Origin: Nocardioides sp. QY071
GTDB taxonomy: Bacteria; Actinomycetota; Actinomycetes; Propionibacteriales; Nocardioidaceae
Direction of reading: 5' to 3'
DNA length: 64,000 nucleotides
Assembly: GCF_029961765.1 (NCBI RefSeq)
Contig: NZ_CP124681.1
Location: forward strand, 3,162,001 to 3,226,000
Part shown: one piece after another, positions 28,005 to 62,928 of the stretch
How positions within the stretch are numbered: position 1 is the stretch's first letter
Layout of the letters: each line of letters opens with the position of its first letter
Notes under the pieces: model-generated
What the model was told of the DNA's origin: nothing
Database searches by the model: none
What the model saw: only the letters and a program-made list of their open reading frames with translations
Translations under genes and position numbers: made by a program

Positions 28005-28491
28005 GCGCGAGCATCAGCACCAGGTAGGCGAGCATCGCGCCGACCGGCCACGCGAGGTAGGGCGTCCAGCCCGCGACGGCGAGGTGGCCCGGCAGGGTGT
28101 CGCCGACCTTGTGGGCGGACAGCAGGCCGGCCGGGTCGGCCGGGCTGAACGACTCCCCCAGCAGGGTCATCACCAGCACACCGAGCCCGGCGCCGACCAG
28201 CACCGCGATGATCCCGGCCACAGCCTGGTTGCGCGCGAGCCAGCCACCGACCAGGCCGAGCAGGACCGCGAGCCCGAAGGCGACGACGACATAGGTCGCC
28301 GTACCGCTGAAGTCGCGGGTGATGCCCGGGTCGAACGGATCGGGGTACCAGGCCTTGCCGGCCACGGTGTCGTAGATCTTCCCGTCGGGGGCGGGCCCCC
28401 ACCACGTCCACCACAGCCAGCCGCCAGCGGCACCCAGGAGGGAGCCGAGCACCACGGGCACGAGGAGCGGCAGGACTGCCAGGCGCCTCAT
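27943..28491 (-). CDS. Membrane protein downstream of dnaE (DUF2567-like)
   Basis: A 182-residue protein with four predicted membrane segments and an extracytoplasmic loop after the first (about 35-65). The pattern resembles actinobacterial DUF2567 proteins found beside dnaE, but I am not certain of the family. The ATG overlaps the dnaE stop as ATGA. The C-terminal Pro/Ala-rich tail is encoded opposite the end of ybaK. Confidence 0.7.
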
Positions 28492-31400
28492 CGGTCGAGG
28501 CACCCCGGGCCGAGGAGCTGCTTGAGGTCGGCGAAGAGGGAGACCGAGGGAGTCACCCGCAGATTGTCCCCCAGTCGCATGACCTTGGTGGAGTCGCGGC
28601 TCAGCAGCTGGAGCCGCACCTCGGTCAGCCCGGCGTGGGAGGTCAGCACCTCGCGCAGCTGGGCCACGACCGGCCCGGTGCACCGGGTCGAGGGCAGGCT
28701 GATCACGACCGGGCCGTCGCTGCCCCGCTCCAGGTCGGGGACGGTGACCTCCTGGCCGCGCAGCTGCGCCGGCTCGCGGTCGGTGTCGAGCTGGCCGCGC
28801 ACCCGGATGATCGCGTCCTCGGTGAGGTACGGCGCCGCGAGCCGGTAGCTGCTCGGGAACAGCAGCACGTCGATCGCGCCCTCGAGGTCCTCGAGGGTCA
28901 CGGTGGCCCACGGGTCGCCGTTCTTGGTGATCTTGCGCTGGATCGAGGTGACCAGGCCGGCCACCGTCACCGTCGAGTTGTGCGGCCGGCTCTCGTCGGT
29001 GACCAGCTGGCCGATGGTGCAGTCGGTTCCGTTGGACAAGACGTGCTCGAGGCCGAGCAGCGGGTGGTCGGAGACGTAGAGGCCGAGCATCTCCCGCTCG
29101 TGGCCGAGCAGGGTCATCTTGTCCCACTCGTCGATCTCGGGGATCGCGACGCTCACGCCGAACCCTCCGTCGCCCCCGTCGTCGTCGCCCAGCCCGGCGA
29201 ACAGCGAGTCCTGGCCGATCGCCTCGTTGCGCTTGATGTCGACGTACTGGTCGACCGCGGTCTCGTGGATCGCGACCAGGGCGCGACGCAGGTGCTTCAT
29301 GTCGTCGAAGGCACCGGCCTTGATCAGCGAGTCGATGACCCGCTTGTTGCACACGGTGGCCGGCACCTTGGACAGGAAGTCGTTGAAGTCGGTGAACCGG
29401 CCCTTCTCGACCCGGGCCTCGGCGATGCCGTCGACGACGTTGGAGCCGACGTTGCGCACGGCGGTGAGGCCGAAGCGGATGTCGCGCCCGACGGCGGTGA
29501 AGTTGTGCGCCGACTCGTTGACGTCGGGCGGGAGCACCTGGATCTTCATCCGACGGCACTCGTTGAGGTAGATCGCCATCTTGTCCTTGTCGTCCTTGAC
29601 GGACGTGAGGAGCGCGGCCATGTACTCGGTCGGGTAGTTGGCCTTGAGGTAGGCGGTCCAGTAGGTGATGACGCCGTAGGCCGCGGAGTGGGACTTGTTG
29701 AACGCGTAGTCGGCGAACGGGACGAGGATCTCCCAGAGCGTCTTGACCGCGTCCTTGGGATAGCCCCGCTCGAGCATGCCGGCCTCGAAGCCCTCGAACT
29801 GCGCGTCGAGCTCGGCCTTCTTCTTCTTGCCCATGACCCGGCGCATGTTGTCTGCCGCGCCCAGCGAGTAGCCGGCCAGGACCTGGGCGATCGCCATCAC
29901 CTGCTCCTGGTAGACGATCAGGCCGTAGGTCTCCCCCAGCACCGGCTCGAGCGCCTCGGCGAGCGCCGGGTGGATCGGCTCGATCGGCTGGCGCCCGTTC
30001 TTGCGGTGGGCGTACTTGTTGTGGGAGTCGGCGCCCATCGGGCCGGGGCGGTAGAGCGCACTGACCGCGGTGATGTCGGCGAACTTGTCGGGCAGCATCG
30101 AGCGCAGCAGCGCGCGCATGCCACCGCCATCGAGCTGGAACACGCCCAGGGTGTCGCCCCGGCCCATCAGCTCGTAGGTGGCCCGGTTGTCGAACGGGAG
30201 TTCCTCGAGGACGACGACCTCGTCCTTGTTGGCCTTGATGTTGGCCAGCGCGTCCTCGAGGATGCGCAGGTTGGACAGGCCCAGGAAGTCCATCTTGACC
30301 AGGCCCAGCGACTCGCACATCGGGTAGTCGAACTGGGTGATCACCGCGCCGTCCTGCGGGCGGGCCATGATCGGCACGATGTCGATCAGCGGCTCGCTGG
30401 ACATGATCACGCCGGCCGCGTGCACACCCCAGTTGCGGATCTGGCCCTCGAGGCCGACCGCCGTCTGGTAGATCGTGCGGACGTCGGCGTCGGACTCGTA
30501 GAGCGCGCGGAACTCGCCGCCGTCGTTGTAGCGCTTGTGCTCGGGGTTGAAGATCTCCTTGAGCGGCACGCCCTTGCCCATGACGTCGGGCGGCATCGCC
30601 TTGGTGATCTTGTCGCCGATCGCGAAGCCGTGGTCGAGAACCCGGGCGGCGTCCTTGATCGCGGCCTTGGCCTTGAGCCGGCCGAAGGTGGCGATCTGCG
30701 CGACGCGCTCGGCGCCGTACTTCTCGGAGACGTACTGGATGACCTCGCCGCGCCGCGCGTCGTCGAAGTCGATGTCGAAGTCGGGCATCGAGGGGCGCTC
30801 GGGGTTGAGGAAGCGCTCGAAGAACAGGCCGTGCTCGAGGGGGCACAGGTCGGTGATGCTCAGGGCGTACGCCGCGATCGAGCCCGCACCCGAGCCACGA
30901 CCCGGGCCCACCCGGATGCCGTTGCGCTTGGACCACTGGATGAAGTCGGCGACCACGAGGTAGTAGCCGCAGTAGCCCTTCTGCGAGACGATCGCGAGCT
31001 CCATCTCGACGCGGTCCTTGACCTCCTGGGTCAGCCGGTCGCCGGGGTAGCGCGCCTCGATGCCGCGCCACACCTCCTTGCGGAACCAGGACTCCTCGGT
31101 CTCGCCGTCGGGGATGTCGGCGCGGGCCATGTAGCCGCCGGTCGACTCGGTGAACTCGACCGAGCAGCGCTCGGCGATCGCCACCGTGTTGTCGCACGCC
31201 TCGGGCATGCCGAACTTCCCGGCCCACAGCTCGCGCATCTCGGCCGCGGACTTGATGTAGTAGCCGCCGCCGTCGAACTTGAGCCGGTTGGTGTCGGAGA
31301 GCCGCTTGCCGGACGCGACGCAGATGAGGGCGTCGTGGGCGTCGGCGTCCTCGGGGTTGTTGTAGTGGGAGTCGTTGGTCGCGATCGGCGGGATGCCGAG

Positions 31401-32051
31401 CTCCTTGCCGAGACGCAGCAGGTCGTCGCGGACCCGCTTCTCGATGGAGATGCCGTGGTCCATCAGCTCCAGGAAGACGGACTCCTTGCCGTAGATGTCC
31501 TGCAGCTCGGCCGCCTCGCGGACCGCCTCGTCCCACTGACCCAGCCGCAGGCGGGTCTGGATCGCGCCGCTGGGGCAGCCGGTGGAGACGATGATCCCCT
31601 TGCTGTGCTCGGCGAGGATCTCCTTGTCCATCCGCGGCTTGAAGTAGTAGCCCTCCAGGCTCGAGCGCGACGAGAGCCGGAACAGGTTGTGCATGCCCTC
31701 GGTGGACTCGGCCCACATCGTCATGTGGGTGTAGGCGCCACCGCCGGCGACGTCGTCGCCGCCCTCCTCGGCCGCGTCGCCCTTGCCCCAGCGCACCCGG
31801 CGCCGCTCGCCCCGCTGGGTGCCGGGGGTGATGTAGGCCTCGATGCCGATGATGGGCTGGACGCCGTACTTCTTCGCCTTGGAGTAGAAGTCGTAGGCAC
31901 CGTGCAGGTTGCCGTGGTCGGTCATCGCGATCGCCGGCATGCCGAGGTCGTTGACGCGGGTGAACAACCCGTCGAGCAGCGACGCTCCGTCGAGCATGGA
32001 GTACTCGGTGTGCACGTGCAGGTGGACGAAGTCCCCGGCGTCAGCAGCCAT
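28488..32051 (-). CDS. dnaE: DNA polymerase III subunit alpha
   Basis: A 1187-residue replicative polymerase of the DnaE1 type. The N-terminal PHP domain starts HLHVHTEYSMLDG; the catalytic aspartates lie in MPDFDIDFDD; helix-hairpin-helix, OB-fold (VTVAGLVTSIQRK) and C-terminal tau-binding regions follow. Length matches the family. The ATG at 32049-32051 has GAGGAG about 14 nt upstream, which is distant. TAGGCT at 32105-32110 is a possible -10 for a leadered transcript. Confidence 0.97.
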   Translation of the reverse strand: MAADAGDFVHLHVHTEYSMLDGASLLDGLFTRVNDLGMPAIAMTDHGNLHGAYDFYSKAKKYGVQPIIGIEAYITPGTQRGERRRVRWGKGDAAEEGGDDVAGGGAYTHMTMWAESTEGMHNLFRLSSRSSLEGYYFKPRMDKEILAEHSKGIIVSTGCPSGAIQTRLRLGQWDEAVREAAELQDIYGKESVFLELMDHGISIEKRVRDDLLRLGKELGIPPIATNDSHYNNPEDADAHDALICVASGKRLSDTNRLKFDGGGYYIKSAAEMRELWAGKFGMPEACDNTVAIAERCSVEFTESTGGYMARADIPDGETEESWFRKEVWRGIEARYPGDRLTQEVKDRVEMELAIVSQKGYCGYYLVVADFIQWSKRNGIRVGPGRGSGAGSIAAYALSITDLCPLEHGLFFERFLNPERPSMPDFDIDFDDARRGEVIQYVSEKYGAERVAQIATFGRLKAKAAIKDAARVLDHGFAIGDKITKAMPPDVMGKGVPLKEIFNPEHKRYNDGGEFRALYESDADVRTIYQTAVGLEGQIRNWGVHAAGVIMSSEPLIDIVPIMARPQDGAVITQFDYPMCESLGLVKMDFLGLSNLRILEDALANIKANKDEVVVLEELPFDNRATYELMGRGDTLGVFQLDGGGMRALLRSMLPDKFADITAVSALYRPGPMGADSHNKYAHRKNGRQPIEPIHPALAEALEPVLGETYGLIVYQEQVMAIAQVLAGYSLGAADNMRRVMGKKKKAELDAQFEGFEAGMLERGYPKDAVKTLWEILVPFADYAFNKSHSAAYGVITYWTAYLKANYPTEYMAALLTSVKDDKDKMAIYLNECRRMKIQVLPPDVNESAHNFTAVGRDIRFGLTAVRNVGSNVVDGIAEARVEKGRFTDFNDFLSKVPATVCNKRVIDSLIKAGAFDDMKHLRRALVAIHETAVDQYVDIKRNEAIGQDSLFAGLGDDDGGDGGFGVSVAIPEIDEWDKMTLLGHEREMLGLYVSDHPLLGLEHVLSNGTDCTIGQLVTDESRPHNSTVTVAGLVTSIQRKITKNGDPWATVTLEDLEGAIDVLLFPSSYRLAAPYLTEDAIIRVRGQLDTDREPAQLRGQEVTVPDLERGSDGPVVISLPSTRCTGPVVAQLREVLTSHAGLTEVRLQLLSRDSTKVMRLGDNLRVTPSVSLFADLKQLLGPGCLDR

Positions 32052-32130
32052 CGGTGGTTCGGCGCTCCTCAGTGATCAAAGGGTGGTCGCTCGGGGAAGA
32101 GGACCAGCCTACGTGACGGACGAGGAGACT

Positions 32131-32619
32131 CTAGGCCGACCCTCCGACAGATCCGGGCGGCCACTCCATCCGCAGGTCCGGCTCCCGCTCCTCGTTGTCC
32201 GAGCCGTCGGTGTGCTCGCGCTCGACCAGCCCGCGGGCGGCGTAGAAGGCCCGGGCCGGGGCGTTCTGCTCGAAGACCCACAGGCTGAAGCCGCCGGGGT
32301 GGCGTGCCTTCACCAGCTCGAGCAGGGCGCCGCCCACGCCGGCGCCCTGGTGGGCCGGGTCGACGTACAGGTCGTCGAGCCAGGTCCGGGTGAACCGGGC
32401 GTAGCCGACGACCTCGCCTGCCGCCTCGGCGACCCAGCTCTCGGCCGTGGCGAAGTTGGCGGCGAGGTAGCTGCGGACCTCCTCGGGCCGGTGGATCCCG
32501 GGTGGCATGGCGGCCGCGGCCCGCGCGGCGACCTGGACGGCGGCGATGGCCGGCACGTCGGCAGGGACGGCCGGGCGCAGGAGCAGGCCCGCGCCGCCAG
32601 AAGGGTCAGTGGGCGTCAC
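32131..32619 (-). CDS. GNAT-family N-acetyltransferase
   Basis: A 162-residue acetyltransferase. The acetyl-CoA loop is [15 protein letters not shown] and the final strand-helix reads [18 protein letters not shown]. Substrate unknown. The GTG at 32617-32619 has GAGGTC upstream and overlaps the end of the pseudouridine synthase gene by 14 nt, so translation is coupled. Confidence 0.88.
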
Positions 32620-56790: not shown

Positions 56791-59144
56791 CCAGTGCCAG
56801 CCCGACGATCACCAACCGACGCGGCCCGTTCGGCCCGGTCCTGCTGCTCGGCGTCGTCGCCGTGCTGACCACGTGGGCGGCGCTGACCGCGTGGCGCGGC
56901 TTCGTCGAGATGCCCGGCAGCTACCTGCGCCCCCTCGCCGTCCTCGCCGCGCTGCTCGCCCTGAGCGGTGCCGGACTGCGCTGGTCGGGCGCGCCCCGCT
57001 GGCTCACCACCCTGGTCCAGGTCGTGCTCGCCACGGTCTTCGTCACCCACCAGATCACCGGCTCGCTCCTGCCGGTCGGCGCCACCGCCACCGAGATCTG
57101 GCAGTCGCTGGAGGCCTCGGTGCGCACGGCCCGGCAGTACGCCGCGCCGATCGGCGACCGGGTCGCTCCGGTCTGGCCGCTGCTCGTCGTCGCCGGCGCC
57201 GTGGTCCTCGTCCTCGTCGAGACCCTGGCCTGCACGCTGCGCCGCGTCCCCGCCGCCGGCCTCGGCCTGCTCGCGGTCTACGCCCTGCCCAGCGGCGTGC
57301 TCGACGGCGGCCCGGACGCCCTCAGCTTCCTCGGCGCCGCGGGCGGCTTCCTCGTCCTGCTCCACCTCGAGTCGCGCGAGCACCTGCTGCGCTGGGGCCG
57401 CACCGTCGGCCCGCAGCAGGACTCGATGTGGCGCGGCAACCCGGTGCGCGAGGCGATGCGGGCCGGTGCCGGACGGATCGGGATCACCGCGACGGCGCTC
57501 GCCCTCGTCGTCCCCCTGCTCCTGCCGACGGTCGGCGTCAACGTGCTCGACCTCGGCACCGGCAAGGGCAACGGCGACATCCGGATCCGCAAGCCGATCG
57601 CCGACATGCGCCGCGACCTCGAGCGCGGCGAGGACGTGCCGCTCGTGCGGCTGCGCACCGACGACCCGTCGCCGTCGTACCTGCGGATCTCGGTGCTCAA
57701 CCGCTACACCGGCGACGAGTGGAGCAGCGGCGACCGCGACGTGGCCCGCGACGACCGCGCCGACGGGTCGGTCCCCCTCCCCCGCGGGCTGTCCGAGGAC
57801 GTACGGCGCACCACCTTCGACTACGACGCGACGGTCAGCGAGCAGCTCGACTCCACCTGGCTGCCCACGCAGTATCCGATCTCCGCCGTCGACGCCCCCG
57901 GCGACTGGCGCTACGACCCGTCCACGATGGACTTCCTCGCCGCTGACGACGGCCTCGACACCCGCGGCGTCAGCTACACGATGACCGGCGTCGCCCTGGA
58001 CTTCGGCACCGACCGCTCGTTCTTCCGCGACTCGCGTACCGGCGACGTGTCCGAGGAGGTCCTCCACGTCCCCAGCACGGTGCCGCCGCTGGTGCGCAAC
58101 CTGGCCCGCGACGTCACCTCCGGCGCGACCACCGACTACGAGCGCGCCCTGTTGCTGCAGCGGTGGTTCCGCCAGGACGGCGGGTTCACCTACGACCTGC
58201 AGAAGGCACCCAAGGGCACCGGCAACCAGACCCTCGAGGGATTCCTGGCCCGCAACGGCCGGGTGGGCTACTGCGAGCAGTTCGCCTCCGCGATGGCCGT
58301 GATGGCCCGCGTGCTCGGGATCCCCGCGCGGGTGGCCGTCGGCTTCCTGCAGCCCGACCAGACCGGTACCCACACGTGGGTCTACAGCAGCCACGACCTG
58401 CACGCCTGGCCCGAGCTCTACTTCGCCGGCTCGGGTTGGGTGCGCTTCGAGCCCACCCCGTCCGGGCGCGTCCAGGAGGTCCCCGCCTACACCCGGGTCC
58501 CCGTCGACGGCGGCAGCGACGACCCGCGCGGCGGGCCGACCAACGCCACGTCGGCCGGCCCCGGCGCCTCCGGCACCGCGGCACCGAGCGCCGGGCCCAA
58601 CCGCCGCCCCGAGATCGACCGCGACCCCGGCACCGCCACCGGAGCCGACCAGGGCGGCCTTCCGCTGCCGGTGCTGATCGGCGGCGCGGTCGTGCTCGTG
58701 CTGCTGCTCGCCGGCATCGCCGCCCTCGGCGGCCCGACCGCGGTGCGGACCCGCGGGCGCCGTACCCGACTCGCGGGCTCGCCCGACGACGTGTGGCGCG
58801 AGGTCCGCGCCACCGCGATCGACCTGGGCCTGCCCTGGCCGGCCGGCCGGTCACCCCGCGAGTCCGGCGCCTTCCTGCTCGGCCACCTCGCCACCCCCAC
58901 CGACCGCCCCGCCGAGCGCCCGCGCACCGGCCCCGAGGCAGCGCCCGAGGCCGCCGACGCCCTGGAGCGGCTGGTCCTCGCCGTCGAGCACGCCCGGTAC
59001 GCGCGGCCCGGTGCGGTCGCCACGCTCGAGCGGACCTCGGTCGCCGAGGACGGTGCACTGGTCCTCGCGGCCCTGGAGGCCGGGGTCACGCCGCGGGCAC
59101 GGCGGCGGGCGCGGTGGGTGCCGATGTCGGTCTGGCGGCGTTGA
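56787..59144 (+). CDS. Transglutaminase-like membrane protein (TgpA type)
   Basis: A 785-residue protein: about six N-terminal membrane helices, a large extracytoplasmic region with a transglutaminase core, a Pro/Gly/Thr linker, a seventh helix (about 630-655) and a cytoplasmic DUF4129-like tail. Catalytic Cys is in RVGYCEQFASAMA and His in LHAWPELYF; where many relatives have FDPTP this one reads FEPTP, so the third residue is Glu rather than Asp. ATGA overlap with the DUF58 gene. Confidence 0.9.
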   Translation: MTSASPTITNRRGPFGPVLLLGVVAVLTTWAALTAWRGFVEMPGSYLRPLAVLAALLALSGAGLRWSGAPRWLTTLVQVVLATVFVTHQITGSLLPVGATATEIWQSLEASVRTARQYAAPIGDRVAPVWPLLVVAGAVVLVLVETLACTLRRVPAAGLGLLAVYALPSGVLDGGPDALSFLGAAGGFLVLLHLESREHLLRWGRTVGPQQDSMWRGNPVREAMRAGAGRIGITATALALVVPLLLPTVGVNVLDLGTGKGNGDIRIRKPIADMRRDLERGEDVPLVRLRTDDPSPSYLRISVLNRYTGDEWSSGDRDVARDDRADGSVPLPRGLSEDVRRTTFDYDATVSEQLDSTWLPTQYPISAVDAPGDWRYDPSTMDFLAADDGLDTRGVSYTMTGVALDFGTDRSFFRDSRTGDVSEEVLHVPSTVPPLVRNLARDVTSGATTDYERALLLQRWFRQDGGFTYDLQKAPKGTGNQTLEGFLARNGRVGYCEQFASAMAVMARVLGIPARVAVGFLQPDQTGTHTWVYSSHDLHAWPELYFAGSGWVRFEPTPSGRVQEVPAYTRVPVDGGSDDPRGGPTNATSAGPGASGTAAPSAGPNRRPEIDRDPGTATGADQGGLPLPVLIGGAVVLVLLLAGIAALGGPTAVRTRGRRTRLAGSPDDVWREVRATAIDLGLPWPAGRSPRESGAFLLGHLATPTDRPAERPRTGPEAAPEAADALERLVLAVEHARYARPGAVATLERTSVAEDGALVLAALEAGVTPRARRRARWVPMSVWRR

Positions 59145-59163
59145 CCGGCAGCTCCACGCGAGC

Positions 59164-59196
59164 GTCCGTCCCGGCGCCGCAGGCGCCGGGACGGAC
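59164..59196 (+). terminator. Terminator hairpin after the transglutaminase gene
   Basis: A perfect 15-bp stem (59164-59178 with 59182-59196) with a 3-nt loop, 20 bp past the stop. No T-tract. Confidence 0.75.
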
Positions 59197-59204
59197 CCTG
59201 GACA

Positions 59205-59233
59205 TGAAACAGCCCCCGGGTGAGCGGGGGCTG
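59205..59233 (-). terminator. Terminator of the DUF3040 gene
   Basis: On the minus strand a 9-bp stem (CAGCCCCCG / CGGGGGCTG, 59225-59233 with 59210-59218) is followed by TTTC. It faces the preceding hairpin, so the convergent pair is insulated from both sides. Confidence 0.7.
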
Positions 59234-59260
59234 CGGATGAGGTCCTCGGAGTGTGTCGGC

Positions 59261-59704
59261 TCAGAAGCCGCCGCGGTCGCGACGGCGGCGCCAGCGGGCC
59301 TGGAGGTTGTCCATGAAGCCGGAGGACCGGCCGTGGCCCCGACCGTGACCGCGACCGTGGTGGCCGCGGCGACCGCCGTCGACGACACCGAAGCCGGACG
59401 GGTGCGCCGACACGTTCGGAGCGGCTGCTCCCCCGCGCTGGCCGCGGACCGAGCCGAGCAGGATGGTGGCGGAGGCGAGCATGATCAGGAAGCCGGCGAC
59501 GCCGACGGGCCAGTAGCCGCTGACGGCTCCGCCCATCATCACGGCGATGCCGCCGGCGAAGACCACGCCGGCGAGGATGGCGCGGCGGCGGGCTGCCTGG
59601 CGGAGGGTCGTGCCCCGGAGGGTGGACGCGAACTTCGGGTCCTCCTCGCTGAGGGCGCGCTCCATCTGCTCCAGCAGTCGCAACTCCTCTTCCGAGAGTG
59701 GCAC
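59261..59704 (-). CDS. DUF3040 membrane protein
   Basis: A 147-residue protein starting with the family hallmark PLSEEELRLLEQMERAL and EEDPKFASTLR, then two membrane segments and a His/Gly/Arg-rich tail (HHGRGHGRGHGR) of unknown role. GTG at 59702-59704 has GGAGG 5 nt upstream; GTG at 59719 is in frame. Function unknown; the family is common next to actinobacterial dinB and dcw genes. Confidence 0.88.
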   Translation of the reverse strand: MPLSEEELRLLEQMERALSEEDPKFASTLRGTTLRQAARRRAILAGVVFAGGIAVMMGGAVSGYWPVGVAGFLIMLASATILLGSVRGQRGGAAAPNVSAHPSGFGVVDGGRRGHHGRGHGRGHGRSSGFMDNLQARWRRRRDRGGF

Positions 59705-59843
59705 CGAATCCTCCGACACGTGTGAGGCGGTTCCCCGCCCGATGACTCTTCCTCCAAGTGTAGGCAGGCATCTCCAGCGGTGGTAGGCCGTCCCCCGAAA
59801 TTGTGCGGTCGGCGTCCGGGGACGGTCCCGACGGGCCACCCGG

Positions 59844-61049
59844 TCACAGCAGGCTGGCCCGGCGCACGGCGGCGCTGCCGAAGCGGTCGACGGCCCGGTC
59901 GACGGCCCGGTCGGCGTCGGGCCAGCCGGGGTCGCGCTCGCCGAGGGCGAGCTGGCGGCTGTCGACGGGCCGGAGCCGGCGTAGGCCCTCGACCCGGACG
60001 CCGACCAGGCGGACCGCGAGCGGGCGCGGGCCGCGGGCCTCGAGGAGGCCGTCGAGGAGGGTGACCGCGACGGCGTACACCTCCTGGGTCACGTCGGTCG
60101 GCTCCGGCAGGGTGCGCGAGCGCTGGACGGTGGTGAAGTCGGAGAAGCGGACCGTGACCGTGACCGTGCGGCCGGTGCGTCCCGCGCCGCGCACCCGGGC
60201 GGCGACCCGGGCGGTCAGCCGGAGCAGCTCGCGACGCAGCTGCGCCCGGTCGCGTACGTCGACCGCCAGCGTGTGCTGCGAGCCCATGCTCCCCTCGGGC
60301 TCGCCCTCACCGAAGCCGAAGACCCCGGCACCGCCCGGCACCAGCTCGGTGCGGTCGCTCCCCCACACCAGGGCGTGCAGGTGCCCGCCGAGGTGACGCC
60401 CGAGCATCCGCCGGAGCAGGTCGACCTCGATCGCGGCGACGTCGCCGACCGTGATCAGCCCGAGACGGTGCAGGCGCTGACGGGTGGCCTCGCCGACGCC
60501 GTAGAGCACGCCCACGTCGAGCGGGTGGACCTCGGCGACGAACCGGTCGGGCGGGATCACCCGGACGCCGTCGGGCTTGGCCTGGCGGCTCGCCAGCTTG
60601 GCGACCGAGATGGAGGCCGCGATGCCGACCGAGCAGGTGATGCCGTGCTCGGCGCGGATCCGGGAGCGCAGCCGCTCGGCGATCGCCTCCGGCGGCCCGA
60701 ACAGCCGGACCGCACCGCGCACGTCGAGGAACGCCTCGTCGAGCGAGGTGACCTCGACCAGCGGAGTGACGGTGCGGAAGGTCTCCATGATCGCCTTCGA
60801 CACCGGGGTCAGCAGACCGAAGTCGGGCGGCATGGTGACCGCGTCGGGGCACAGCCGGGCGGCCTCGGTGCCGGACATGCCGGAGCGGATGCCGTAGCGG
60901 CGGGCCGGGTAGTTGGCGGACAGCACGACCCCGCGGTGCCCGCCGCCCACGACCACCGGGACGTCGTGGAGCTCGGGCCGGTCGCGGATCATCACCGACG
61001 CGTAGAACGCGTCCATGTCGACGTGCAGGATCGGGCAGGTGACGCTCAC
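59844..61049 (-). CDS. dinB: DNA polymerase IV (Y family)
   Basis: A 401-residue translesion polymerase. Catalytic Asp11 (HVDMDAFYASV), Asp104 and Glu105 (TSLDEAFLDV) are intact, followed by thumb and little-finger domains. I do not see a clear QLxLF-type clamp motif at the C-terminus. It is 30 bp downstream of the methyltransferase gene in a cluster headed by a LexA box. Confidence 0.93.
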   Translation of the reverse strand: MSVTCPILHVDMDAFYASVMIRDRPELHDVPVVVGGGHRGVVLSANYPARRYGIRSGMSGTEAARLCPDAVTMPPDFGLLTPVSKAIMETFRTVTPLVEVTSLDEAFLDVRGAVRLFGPPEAIAERLRSRIRAEHGITCSVGIAASISVAKLASRQAKPDGVRVIPPDRFVAEVHPLDVGVLYGVGEATRQRLHRLGLITVGDVAAIEVDLLRRMLGRHLGGHLHALVWGSDRTELVPGGAGVFGFGEGEPEGSMGSQHTLAVDVRDRAQLRRELLRLTARVAARVRGAGRTGRTVTVTVRFSDFTTVQRSRTLPEPTDVTQEVYAVAVTLLDGLLEARGPRPLAVRLVGVRVEGLRRLRPVDSRQLALGERDPGWPDADRAVDRAVDRFGSAAVRRASLL

Positions 61050-61079
61050 GGCCCGCTCCCGGGCCGTGTGCGACCGGGC

Positions 61080-61796
61080 TCAGGAGGCGGCGTTCGCCAG
61101 GACGTGGAGCTGGGTGGCCAGCGGGAGGTACTCCGGGCGCTGGGCCACCGCGCGCTCCAGGTCGACGAGGGCAGCGGCGGCGCCGGGCTCCTGGTCGACG
61201 AGGGCCGCGGGGACCAGGTCGGCGAAGACCCGGACGGCGTGGACGGACACCGCGCCGAAGCCGTGACCGGCGAGCAGGTCGCGTACCTCCTCGACGGTGA
61301 ACCGGCGACCCGTGCGGGTGTCGACGGGCTGCTGGTCGTCGAGCAGGTCGCGGGCCTGCTGGAAGTGACCCGCCATCGCGCGGGTGATGACAGCGGCGTG
61401 CCGCTGGCCGACGACGAGGCTGAGCAGGCCGCCGGGCCGCAGCACCTCGGCGATCCGCTCCAGCGCGAGCGACGGGTCGACCACCTCGAGGACGCCGTGG
61501 CACAGCACCACGTCGGCGCTGCCGGCCCCGACGACCTCGACGAGGTCGGCGACGTCGCCCTGCAGCCCGGAGACCTCGAGGTCGACCTCGCGCGCCCGGC
61601 GGGCCAGCGCCGCCAGGGCGTCGGGACTGGGGTCGACCACCCGGACCCGGTGGCCCGACTCCGCGAGCCGCACGGCGAAGCCGCCGGTGCCGCCGCCGAG
61701 GTCGACGACGTCGCGGGGTCCGCCCGCGAGCGCGGACTCGAGGGCGTCCCACACGACCGCGGTGCGGACCGATCCACGCTGCTCGCGAGAGGCCAT
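61080..61796 (-). CDS. Class I SAM-dependent methyltransferase
   Basis: A 238-residue Rossmann methyltransferase. SAM motif I is VVDLGGGTGGFAVRLA, the acidic ribose-binding residue is in RVVDPSPDAL, and motif IV is VLCHGVLEVVDP. Substrate unknown. The ATG at 61794-61796 lies 7 nt after TAGTGT, so the gene probably has its own leaderless transcript besides readthrough from the LexA-controlled promoter. Confidence 0.88.
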   Translation of the reverse strand: MASREQRGSVRTAVVWDALESALAGGPRDVVDLGGGTGGFAVRLAESGHRVRVVDPSPDALAALARRAREVDLEVSGLQGDVADLVEVVGAGSADVVLCHGVLEVVDPSLALERIAEVLRPGGLLSLVVGQRHAAVITRAMAGHFQQARDLLDDQQPVDTRTGRRFTVEEVRDLLAGHGFGAVSVHAVRVFADLVPAALVDQEPGAAAALVDLERAVAQRPEYLPLATQLHVLANAAS

Positions 61797-61803
61797 GTGC
61801 CGA

Positions 61804-61809
61804 ACACTA
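61804..61809 (-). promoter_or_regulatory. Leaderless-type -10 of the methyltransferase gene
   Basis: TAGTGT on the minus strand, 7 nt before the ATG. Confidence 0.55.
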
Positions 61810-61844
61810 GTGGTCACCTCAGGATGGCTCGGACAGGCACTCCG

Positions 61845-62303
61845 TCAGCCGACGGCCAGGCCCGCGAGCTGCTCGCCGAGCGGGACGTGCGGGGTGAGGC
61901 CGAGCGCCTGCTCGATGAGGGCGAGGAAGCGGTCGGCGTCGCGGACCAGGTCGTCGGCCTCGCGCTCGGTCGCGGCCCGGGACGACCCGGCCTCGGCCGC
62001 CGCGCGCTTGGAGGCGCCCGCGGCGAAGAAGGACGCCCACTCCGCGAGCTCGGGCGCGACCTCGGCGAGAAGCACCCAGGCATTGCGCTGAGCGCGCCGG
62101 CGGCCGGCCTCGGGGCGGGCCCGGGCGGCCAGCAGGGCGGCGGCGGCGCGCAGCGCGGCGACGTGGGCGCAGGCATAGCGGGTGGCCACGTCGCGGGCCG
62201 CGACCGCCTCGCTCAGCGATTCTGCCGACCGGATCAGGTAGTTGTGGGTGGTCGCCGGCAGGGCGTGCGGGCTGACCGTGAGAGGGGCGGACTGCTGGGC
62301 CAC
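61845..62303 (-). CDS. SAV_6107-type HEPN-domain protein
   Basis: A 152-residue all-helical protein of the SAV_6107 family, placed in the HEPN superfamily. Features are YACAHVAALRAAAALLAARARP and a Trp-rich helix (WVLLAEVAPELAEWASFF). Some HEPN proteins are RNases with RxxxxH; I see no such motif, so nuclease activity is not supported. GTG start with GGAGGAG upstream. A perfect LexA box overlaps its promoter. Confidence 0.85.
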   Translation of the reverse strand: MAQQSAPLTVSPHALPATTHNYLIRSAESLSEAVAARDVATRYACAHVAALRAAAALLAARARPEAGRRRAQRNAWVLLAEVAPELAEWASFFAAGASKRAAAEAGSSRAATEREADDLVRDADRFLALIEQALGLTPHVPLGEQLAGLAVG

Positions 62304-62325
62304 GGCGACTTCTCCTCCAGATCTG

Positions 62326-62343
62326 TTCGAACAGGTGTTCGAA
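62326..62343 (-). promoter_or_regulatory. LexA (SOS) box
   Basis: TTCGAACAGGTGTTCGAA: a 7-bp perfect inverted repeat around 4 bp, matching the actinobacterial SOS box TCGAAC-N4-GTTCGA exactly. It lies just downstream of the -10 of the promoter below, where LexA would block transcription of the HEPN gene and readthrough into the methyltransferase and dinB genes. Confidence 0.9.
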
Positions 62344-62350
62344 TGATCCG

Positions 62351-62380
62351 ACGGTACACCGCAGGTCCGACACTGCTCAA
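62351..62380 (-). promoter_or_regulatory. Promoter of the SOS-controlled HEPN unit
   Basis: TTGAGC (62375-62380), 18-bp spacer, TACCGT (62351-62356) on the minus strand. The start point would fall at the edge of the LexA box. Confidence 0.6.
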
Positions 62381-62427
62381 GAGGCAGCGCCGGAGACGGG
62401 ATGGGCGACCGGGCTCGGCGACCGGGC

Positions 62428-62928
62428 TCAGCGGCTCGCGAGCCGCACGTACTCCCGGCTCTGCGGGTGCCACAGGAACACCAGGGTCACCGCGCTGATC
62501 ACGGCGGCGGCGATCGCCATGCCGTCGACCATGGTCGGCGGGTCGGTGCGCACGGTCGCGACCGCGACCACGATCACGCCGGCGACGATCGCGGCCAGCG
62601 AGTGACGGGCCCAGTTGTAGCCGACCCGGAAGAGTGCGATGAGCGTGAGGGACAACACGGCCGTGACGCCGTAGAGGACCAGGATCACCGGGACGAACTC
62701 CACCGGCTGGACAGTGCTGTCGCCGACCTGCATGGGCGACCAGACGCTGCCGAGGTCCTCGCGCTGGGTGACCACGAGGACGCACACCAGCAACCCGGCC
62801 GCGACCAGGGACCACAGCAGCCAGCACGCGATCACGACCGCGGGCGGCCGGGCCGTCACCTCGCCGGGCTGCTCGCCCGGCCGCTCGACCTCCTGAGCGG
62901 CCTGCTGCTCGGCGTCGGTCTCGGGCAT
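62428..62928 (-). CDS. Hypothetical four-helix membrane protein
   Basis: A 166-residue protein with an acidic N-terminal head (MPETDAEQQAAQEVERPGEQ) and four hydrophobic segments, ending in a short basic tail. GGAGGAACC precedes the ATG at 62926-62928. No family recognised. Divergent from the second YbaK gene across 46 bp. Confidence 0.75.
   Translation of the reverse strand: MPETDAEQQAAQEVERPGEQPGEVTARPPAVVIACWLLWSLVAAGLLVCVLVVTQREDLGSVWSPMQVGDSTVQPVEFVPVILVLYGVTAVLSLTLIALFRVGYNWARHSLAAIVAGVIVVAVATVRTDPPTMVDGMAIAAAVISAVTLVFLWHPQSREYVRLASR

Follow-up and report, generated by a model that had tools for sequence, protein, structure and literature searches.

The locus lies on the minus strand of the window (the whole stretch of 64,000 nucleotides analysed here) and comprises a gene for a HEPN protein, followed by genes coding for a methyltransferase (MTase) and for DinB. 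A DUF3040 gene comes last, its membership in the HEPN transcript not having been shown (Table 1). The HEPN stop codon at 61845 is separated from the MTase gene by 27 bp if the latter starts at GTG 61817 and by 48 bp if it starts at ATG 61796, whereas 30 bp lie between the MTase (61080) and DinB (61049) genes. The gaps of 48 and 30 bp given in an initial annotation of this DNA were thereby confirmed, the former for the ATG start. A terminator scan gave a single terminator-like match, at 62035-62049 inside the HEPN gene, and none between genes.

Concerning DinB, the IMS and IMS_C domains that define a DNA polymerase IV are both present, and HVDMDAFYAS and SLDEAFLDV, which we take to be the motifs of the active-site acidic residues, were read in the translation; among the NCBIfam Pol IV models, only PRK02406 scored above its cut-off. 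PADLOC returned weak matches for HEPN (E 0.01 and 0.046) and matched the MTase to mads_2 over residues 26-163 only.

Table 1. Genes and promoter elements of the HEPN locus (positions in the window)
Feature	Position	Strand	Basis
DUF3040/SCO2097-family protein, last conserved neighbour, start codon uncertain	59261..59764	-	profiles
DinB, Y-family DNA polymerase IV (PF00817, PF11799; IMS/IMS_C)	59844..61049	-	profiles
Class I SAM-dependent methyltransferase (PF08241, Methyltransf_11), distantly CmoM-like	61080..61817	-	profiles; start GTG 61817 or ATG 61796
HEPN_SAV_6107 protein (PF18726), 152 aa, GTG start	61845..62303	-	Pfam 118.7 bits (cut-off 27.2); model; fold comparison
Ribosome-binding site GGAGGAGA, 7 bp before GTG	62311..62318	-	read from sequence
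LexA box (SOS box) TCGAACAGGTGTTCGA, perfect palindrome	62327..62342	.	pattern search, sequence read
Exact PafBC/RecA-NDp motif TGTCGG-N10-TACCGT (-10 hexamer 62351-62356)	62351..62372	-	motif scan
-35-like TTGAGC	62375..62380	-	sequence; TTGAC near the same place in many relatives

The promoter region of the HEPN gene

Read on the minus strand, the elements follow each other as TTGAGC-AG-TGTCGG-ACCTGCGGTG-TACCGT-CGGATCAT-TCGAACACCTGTTCGA-ACAGATCT-GGAGGAGA-AGTCGCC-GTG. The LexA box, whose sequence and coordinates the initial annotation had given correctly, matches the consensus TCGAACN4GTTCGA without mismatch and forms part of an 18-bp palindrome, TTCGAACAGGTGTTCGAA (62326-62343). It lies 23 bp upstream of the HEPN GTG, within the 124 bp separating the HEPN start from ORF 62428-62928; since this ORF and the HEPN gene point the same way, no divergent gene competes for the box. 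When the pattern TCGAACANNTGTTCGA was searched with up to 3 mismatches, the window gave three matches vs. 1.24 expected by chance, this box being the only one with 0 mismatches and the other two having 3 each.

The letters of the TTGAGC-N18-TACCGT promoter claimed previously are present as well; what had been missed is that TACCGT doubles as the -10 hexamer of an exact PafBC motif, which ends 8 bp before the LexA box. Taking TACCGT as the -10 element puts the transcription start, by inference, at about 62344, a position covered by LexA. A scan of positions 59000-62500 for the sigma-70 consensus gave no promoter.

According to the accessible part of PMC8151990, the RecA-NDp motif reads TGTCGG-10N-TA-3N-T, and PMC11804915, also available in part, describes PafBC as activated by ssDNA, enabling RNA polymerase at such promoters. 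The HEPN promoter fits the pattern of a PafBC-regulon promoter (TGTCGG-N10-TANNNT), and exact motifs number two in the window vs. 0.14 expected. The second, at 32128-32149 on the minus strand, ends 76 bp upstream of the ATG of ORF 28488-32051, which codes for a DNA polymerase III alpha of 1187 aa, probably the replicative one. As for PafB and PafC, the genome has the two adjacent WYL genes expected of them, located by Pup, proteasome beta and tatC; the first protein carries WYL and WCX domains, the second was only read in translation, and both names are given by context.

Because TACCGT belongs to an exact PafBC motif next to the LexA box, dual control of the HEPN promoter by LexA and PafBC is predicted, without binding or induction data. 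Mycobacterial genes with both a RecA-NDp motif and an SOS box are known (PMC8223512, available in part). In the same partial sources (PMC11804915, PMC8223512), the recA promoter region of mycobacteria, which has P1 (PafBC) and P2 (LexA), likewise brings both damage pathways to bear on one gene; however, recA has two promoters, whereas the single one found here has its LexA box 8 bp after a PafBC-type -10 element.

LexA boxes and PafBC motifs among relatives and in the genome

A first scan covered 55 relatives, nearly all Nocardioidaceae. One of them (L055) gave no HEPN profile match, yet has a perfect box, and was left out. Within 900 bp upstream of HEPN, 48 of the remaining 54 carry a perfect box, or 51 if 1 mismatch is allowed, vs. 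at most two of the 54 for any of 60 control palindromes. No such box was found upstream of HEPN in L031, L051 and L053; the sequence of L053 begins within the gene, and that of L031 extends about 0.65 kb upstream. Four downstream "control" matches in this set fit the extra boxes of L005, L021, L024 and L051 described below.

On a larger scale, PF18726 was found in 247 of 394 class genomes and in 36 of 396 phylum genomes (26 above cut-off). The 80 loci taken from the class were a manual choice of roughly one per genus, not a random sample, and did not include genera g1 and g4; five were dropped as second members of a genus, leaving 75 genera from 38 families with one HEPN locus each. A perfect box occurs within 900 bp upstream in 60/75 and one with at most 1 mismatch in 72/75, the 60 control palindromes reaching at most 1 of the 80 loci. 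The same box thus precedes SAV_6107-family genes in other actinobacteria, as the initial annotation had proposed to check. In two of the three misses a box escaped the search: L133 has its domain start set too early, with a perfect box downstream of that point, and in L120 a box with 1 mismatch precedes DUF6504 at 1230 bp upstream. This leaves L176. Twenty loci of the phylum sample, half of them from genus g4, have 5 perfect boxes and 8 with at most 1 mismatch; weak matches from outside the class (L105-L113) were excluded from the box counts and included among the 184 loci scanned for motifs.

The ten loci of genus g4 (inferred to be probably Streptomyces) have no box with at most 1 mismatch, though HEPN and MTase are kept. 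In L084 and L087-L092 of this genus, which lack a LexA box, a conserved CCGAAC-N4-GATCGA site is found 176-188 bp upstream of HEPN and may represent a diverged operator, among other possibilities. For g357 (probably Corynebacterium, again inferred), 20 of 41 genomes were sampled: within 300 bp, a box is present in 7/20 with at most 1 mismatch and in 13/20 with at most 2, the maxima for 179 control palindromes being 1 and 2 loci, respectively; the other 7/20 have no box with at most 2 mismatches over this distance. In family f90, loci L141, L142, L145, L149 and L154 carry two one-mismatch boxes exactly 40 bp apart upstream of HEPN.

The distribution of the PafBC motif is narrower. Among the box-bearing loci, the exact TGTCRG-N10-TANNNT occurs in 37/50 of the Nocardioidaceae-rich set and in 22/72 class genera, and in 44/50 and 29/72 when one core mismatch is allowed, vs. 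maxima of 4 and 3 for permuted cores. No exact core with a spacer of 5-9 or 11-15 was found in either box-bearing set (50 loci, 72 genera). Over all 184 loci, motif and box occur together upstream of HEPN in 63, at a spacing of 8 or 9 bp in 52 of these; the window's own locus (L095) and one genome counted twice (L099/L171) are among the 63. The rest of those loci (3.24 Mb) contains only two motif and box pairs, those of L120 and L133. The PafBC motif is a trait of this genus and of part of the class, i.e. a minority of its genera. In the genome under study, the exact motif is absent from the imuA and dnaE2 promoters (L221), the only two other damage promoters examined.

In the same genome (5.70 Mb), perfect TCGAACN4GTTCGA sites number four, whereas the pattern read backward as a control has none; the HEPN box is therefore not unique in it. 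One LexA gene passes the Pfam cut-off, so the repressor that an SOS regulon requires is encoded, and a cluster of near-boxes precedes it (L222:2089-2209; four with 1 mismatch, one with 2 and one with 3). A perfect box (L221:14134-14149; C1:2509133) stands 13 bp upstream of the dnaE2 ORF, and imuA-imuB, about 9 kb upstream of that box, are preceded by a one-mismatch box read by eye. With boxes before lexA, imuA-imuB and dnaE2, the box consensus holds in this genome. Both dnaE2 and imuA-imuB, in a split imuA-imuB/dnaE2 arrangement, are away from the HEPN operon and have their own box, dnaE2 being 0.7 Mb from the window operon. Two DNA polymerase III alpha genes were found, one of which matches the error-prone model PRK05672 (1417 bits) and is termed DnaE2; a second DinB-type match and one ImuB-like match are also present. 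The other two perfect boxes lie close to the beginning of a DUF222-HNH endonuclease gene (L226:1501-1516; C1:4158376) and at L224:1501-1516 (C1:2172386), where the neighbouring genes could not be securely identified.

Could the box be a chance palindrome? Sites with at most 2 mismatches are plentiful in this GC-rich genome (602 vs. 323 for the control pattern), but the conservation relative to control palindromes and the four perfect sites against none make the odds of this negligible. A perfect box over the inferred start site, conserved in relatives, is what is expected of an SOS regulon member. LexA control of the operon is strongly supported as a prediction from sequence, and its extension to most of the sampled genera outside g4 is very likely; binding and induction data are lacking for both.

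Gene neighbourhoods of the HEPN gene

Profile searches for five partner genes (DUF6504, dnaE2, MTase, dinB and DUF3040) gave the order DUF6504-HEPN-dnaE2 in 33/75 genera, belonging to 22 families, a context absent from the initial annotation. Pfam confirmed DUF6504 in 5/5 scanned proteins. Where more than 6.9 kb of downstream sequence was available (25 loci of this order), dinB was found in 24, DUF3040 in 19 and MTase in 18. As for the other genera, dnaE2 is near HEPN in a different arrangement in 8, MTase or dinB occur without dnaE2, as in the window, in 14, DUF3040 is the only partner in 4, and 16 lack all five, the downstream sequence being shorter than 1.5 kb in two of the latter. Allowing at most 1 mismatch, a box was found in 32/33, 8/8, 13/14, 4/4 and 15/16 of these groups, respectively. 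In none of the 184 loci is HEPN fused in frame to a partner. The HEPN-MTase-dinB order of the window recurs in L003.

Several loci show natural splits of this row. In L005, L024 and L051, the HEPN-MTase distance is roughly 1 kb greater than in their neighbours and the MTase match has a perfect box of its own 105-131 bp upstream, L051 having no box before HEPN; in L004 and L021, a perfect box lies 54-55 bp before the dnaE2 match. L141 (f90) and L164 (f92) have other HEPN neighbours and retain their box or boxes. From the boxes at split-off genes and at lone HEPN genes, each part seems to be under LexA in its own right. None of the five partners accompanies HEPN in family f90, so that a cis link between HEPN and the polymerases is not universal.

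LexA control of DinB is a known theme and, with dinB in 24 of the 25 long loci, the box might simply serve dinB, with HEPN and MTase as passengers at the front of its operon. This is highly improbable, since the box is kept with HEPN where dinB went undetected (DUF3040-only and partner-free groups, L141 and L164) and split-off MTase-dinB genes have a box of their own. Another possibility is that, during damage, HEPN and the methyltransferase act jointly on RNA or protein and the polymerases are merely co-regulated: the ten g4 loci keep the two genes together, the 1.8 kb of downstream sequence available there containing neither dinB nor dnaE2, and the MTase resembles the tRNA methyltransferase CmoM. 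This too is rather unlikely, as MTase was not found near HEPN in 7 of the 25 long loci or in the 20 g357 loci, and the MTase does not qualify as a CmoM equivalog, scoring 92.6 bits vs. an NCBIfam cut-off of 366.

In g357, DUF3040 follows HEPN in 20/20 loci and mraZ in 18/20. The C. glutamicum genome holds PF18726, and mraZ in this species is cg2378; because of the HEPN-DUF3040-mraZ order, cg2381 is likely to be the PF18726 HEPN gene, an assignment by synteny only, not by sequence. In the available part of PMC5055667, cg2381 is placed in the LexA regulon (citing Jochmann 2009) and is labelled a conserved hypothetical protein; its ciprofloxacin-induced M-value of 3.86 is the second highest, after divS (5.38), among the genes of unknown function shown in the ciprofloxacin table. 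This system differs from that of the window, as neither MTase nor dinB was detected around HEPN in g357. The position beside DUF3040, a SCO2097-family morphological protein, and upstream of mraZ would also suit a checkpoint factor of the dcw region, acting in division or development and not in repair. We regard this as unlikely, HEPN being located between DUF6504 and dnaE2 in 33/75 genera and among other neighbours in L141 and L164.

The LexA control of HEPN, MTase and dinB claimed by the initial annotation is therefore supported by the conservation of the box, by the boxes at split-off MTase and dnaE2 genes and by the likely ortholog cg2381.

DUF6504 is found in 163/394 class genomes, including family f98, none of whose genomes is among the 247 with HEPN. 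It is thus not a strict HEPN partner, no contingency table having been drawn up. A comparison of DUF6504 with ImuB-C, made against the profile of one ImuB tail, gave a probability of 0.6% and no support. Of 14 control genomes, only that of Caulobacter has PF20114, and the genome under study gave no match to it. No literature on DUF6504 was found among open-licence papers. The window operon does not qualify as a mutasome operon, which would hold dnaE2 and an ImuB-C gene, neither being present. The putative DnaE2B-[ImuB-C]-PolY-RecA mutasomes of Actinobacteria (PMC12926913) resemble the row of the relatives, which has a small DUF6504 gene, dnaE2 and dinB; however, no HEPN or MTase is named in the available part of that paper, and the window lacks DUF6504 and dnaE2 in cis. 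The LexA targets listed for S. venezuelae (PMC9380542, in part) include dnaE2-dinP and, on a plasmid, a "hypothetical protein - DNA polymerase IV" operon; the selected-targets table names no gene as HEPN, supplements not being covered.

The HEPN protein and its possible place in the damage response

The window protein meets the definition of the HEPN superfamily (PF18726) by both family profile and fold. Its AlphaFold model, built from 67 sequences, has a pLDDT of 91.8, and VIA-align gave Z 14.9 to 2hsb (117 residues, rmsd 2.5), 13.3 to the sacsin HEPN and 13.2 to 1ufb. The first 24 rows are mostly HEPN or HEPN-MNT, unrelated helical bundles coming at 8.0 and below; as a caveat, helical models can reach Z of about 13 through arrangement alone. 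Foldseek alone was weak (best E 0.079), and a HEPN-profile sequence search of solved structures gave a best E of only 0.26. The HEPN fold is confirmed at the level of the predicted model.

Among 98 non-redundant sequences, W76 is invariant (98/98) and R52, A54, W89, F93 and F126 are nearly so. The RX4-6H motif that defines HEPN ribonucleases is not conserved in this set: R42-H47 has the right spacing, but sits in helix 39-61, and H47 is found in 65/98, with Tyr in 25. This agrees with the available part of PMC3710099, whose table lists HEPN-M (SAV_6107), the same family and from actinobacteria, with a catalytic motif that is not conserved; its row gives no gene association.

Two HEPN toxins, 7ae2 at Z 9.0 and 6m6w at Z 9.1, are among the fold neighbours, as is the RNase AbiV (9bj6, Z 10.0), and the protein might accordingly be a damage-induced RNase or toxin that slows growth during repair, as HEPN toxins do. 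The lack of a conserved motif, together with the absence of a constant antitoxin-like neighbour among the five families searched, makes this quite improbable. Because the RNase motif is not conserved, we prefer a role as a non-catalytic helical adaptor working with the error-prone polymerases or their regulation; a bound partner has not been shown, and this inference is held tentatively, at somewhat less than even odds.

DNA damage removes LexA through RecA on ssDNA, an established pathway. The explanation proposed here is that HEPN, MTase and dinB would form one DNA-damage-inducible operon, in which LexA bound to the box would cover the inferred start site and block transcription, and in which PafBC, once activated by ssDNA, is inferred to help RNA polymerase start at the HEPN promoter. 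The window operon would be a reduced form of a box-DUF6504-HEPN-dnaE2-MTase-dinB-DUF3040 damage-tolerance operon that is widespread in the class, its derivation from the longer one being an inference. We give this explanation as a whole a probability of roughly 0.7, in the absence of binding or expression data.

The suggestion of an undescribed module was half right. The associations of DnaE2, ImuB-C and PolY and the LexA regulation of cg2381 are already in print, in the partly available sources cited above; the HEPN family itself is not named as part of these in the papers found, and no paper linking the SAV_6107-type HEPN family to a damage response was found in the open-licence literature, available in part and without supplements.

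More speculatively, and with the odds against it for now, SAV_6107-type HEPN may be a core, so far unrecognised part of the actinobacterial damage response: a non-catalytic DnaE2/DinB adaptor, perhaps in an ImuA-like place, driven in this genus from a single LexA and PafBC promoter. If true, a family known mainly by its fold would join the core damage-response genes across a large part of a bacterial class, with translesion synthesis and induced mutagenesis as strong leads, and C. glutamicum would offer a simple genetic test. The PafBC-LexA promoter would also give a compact setting in which to ask how two damage signals combine.
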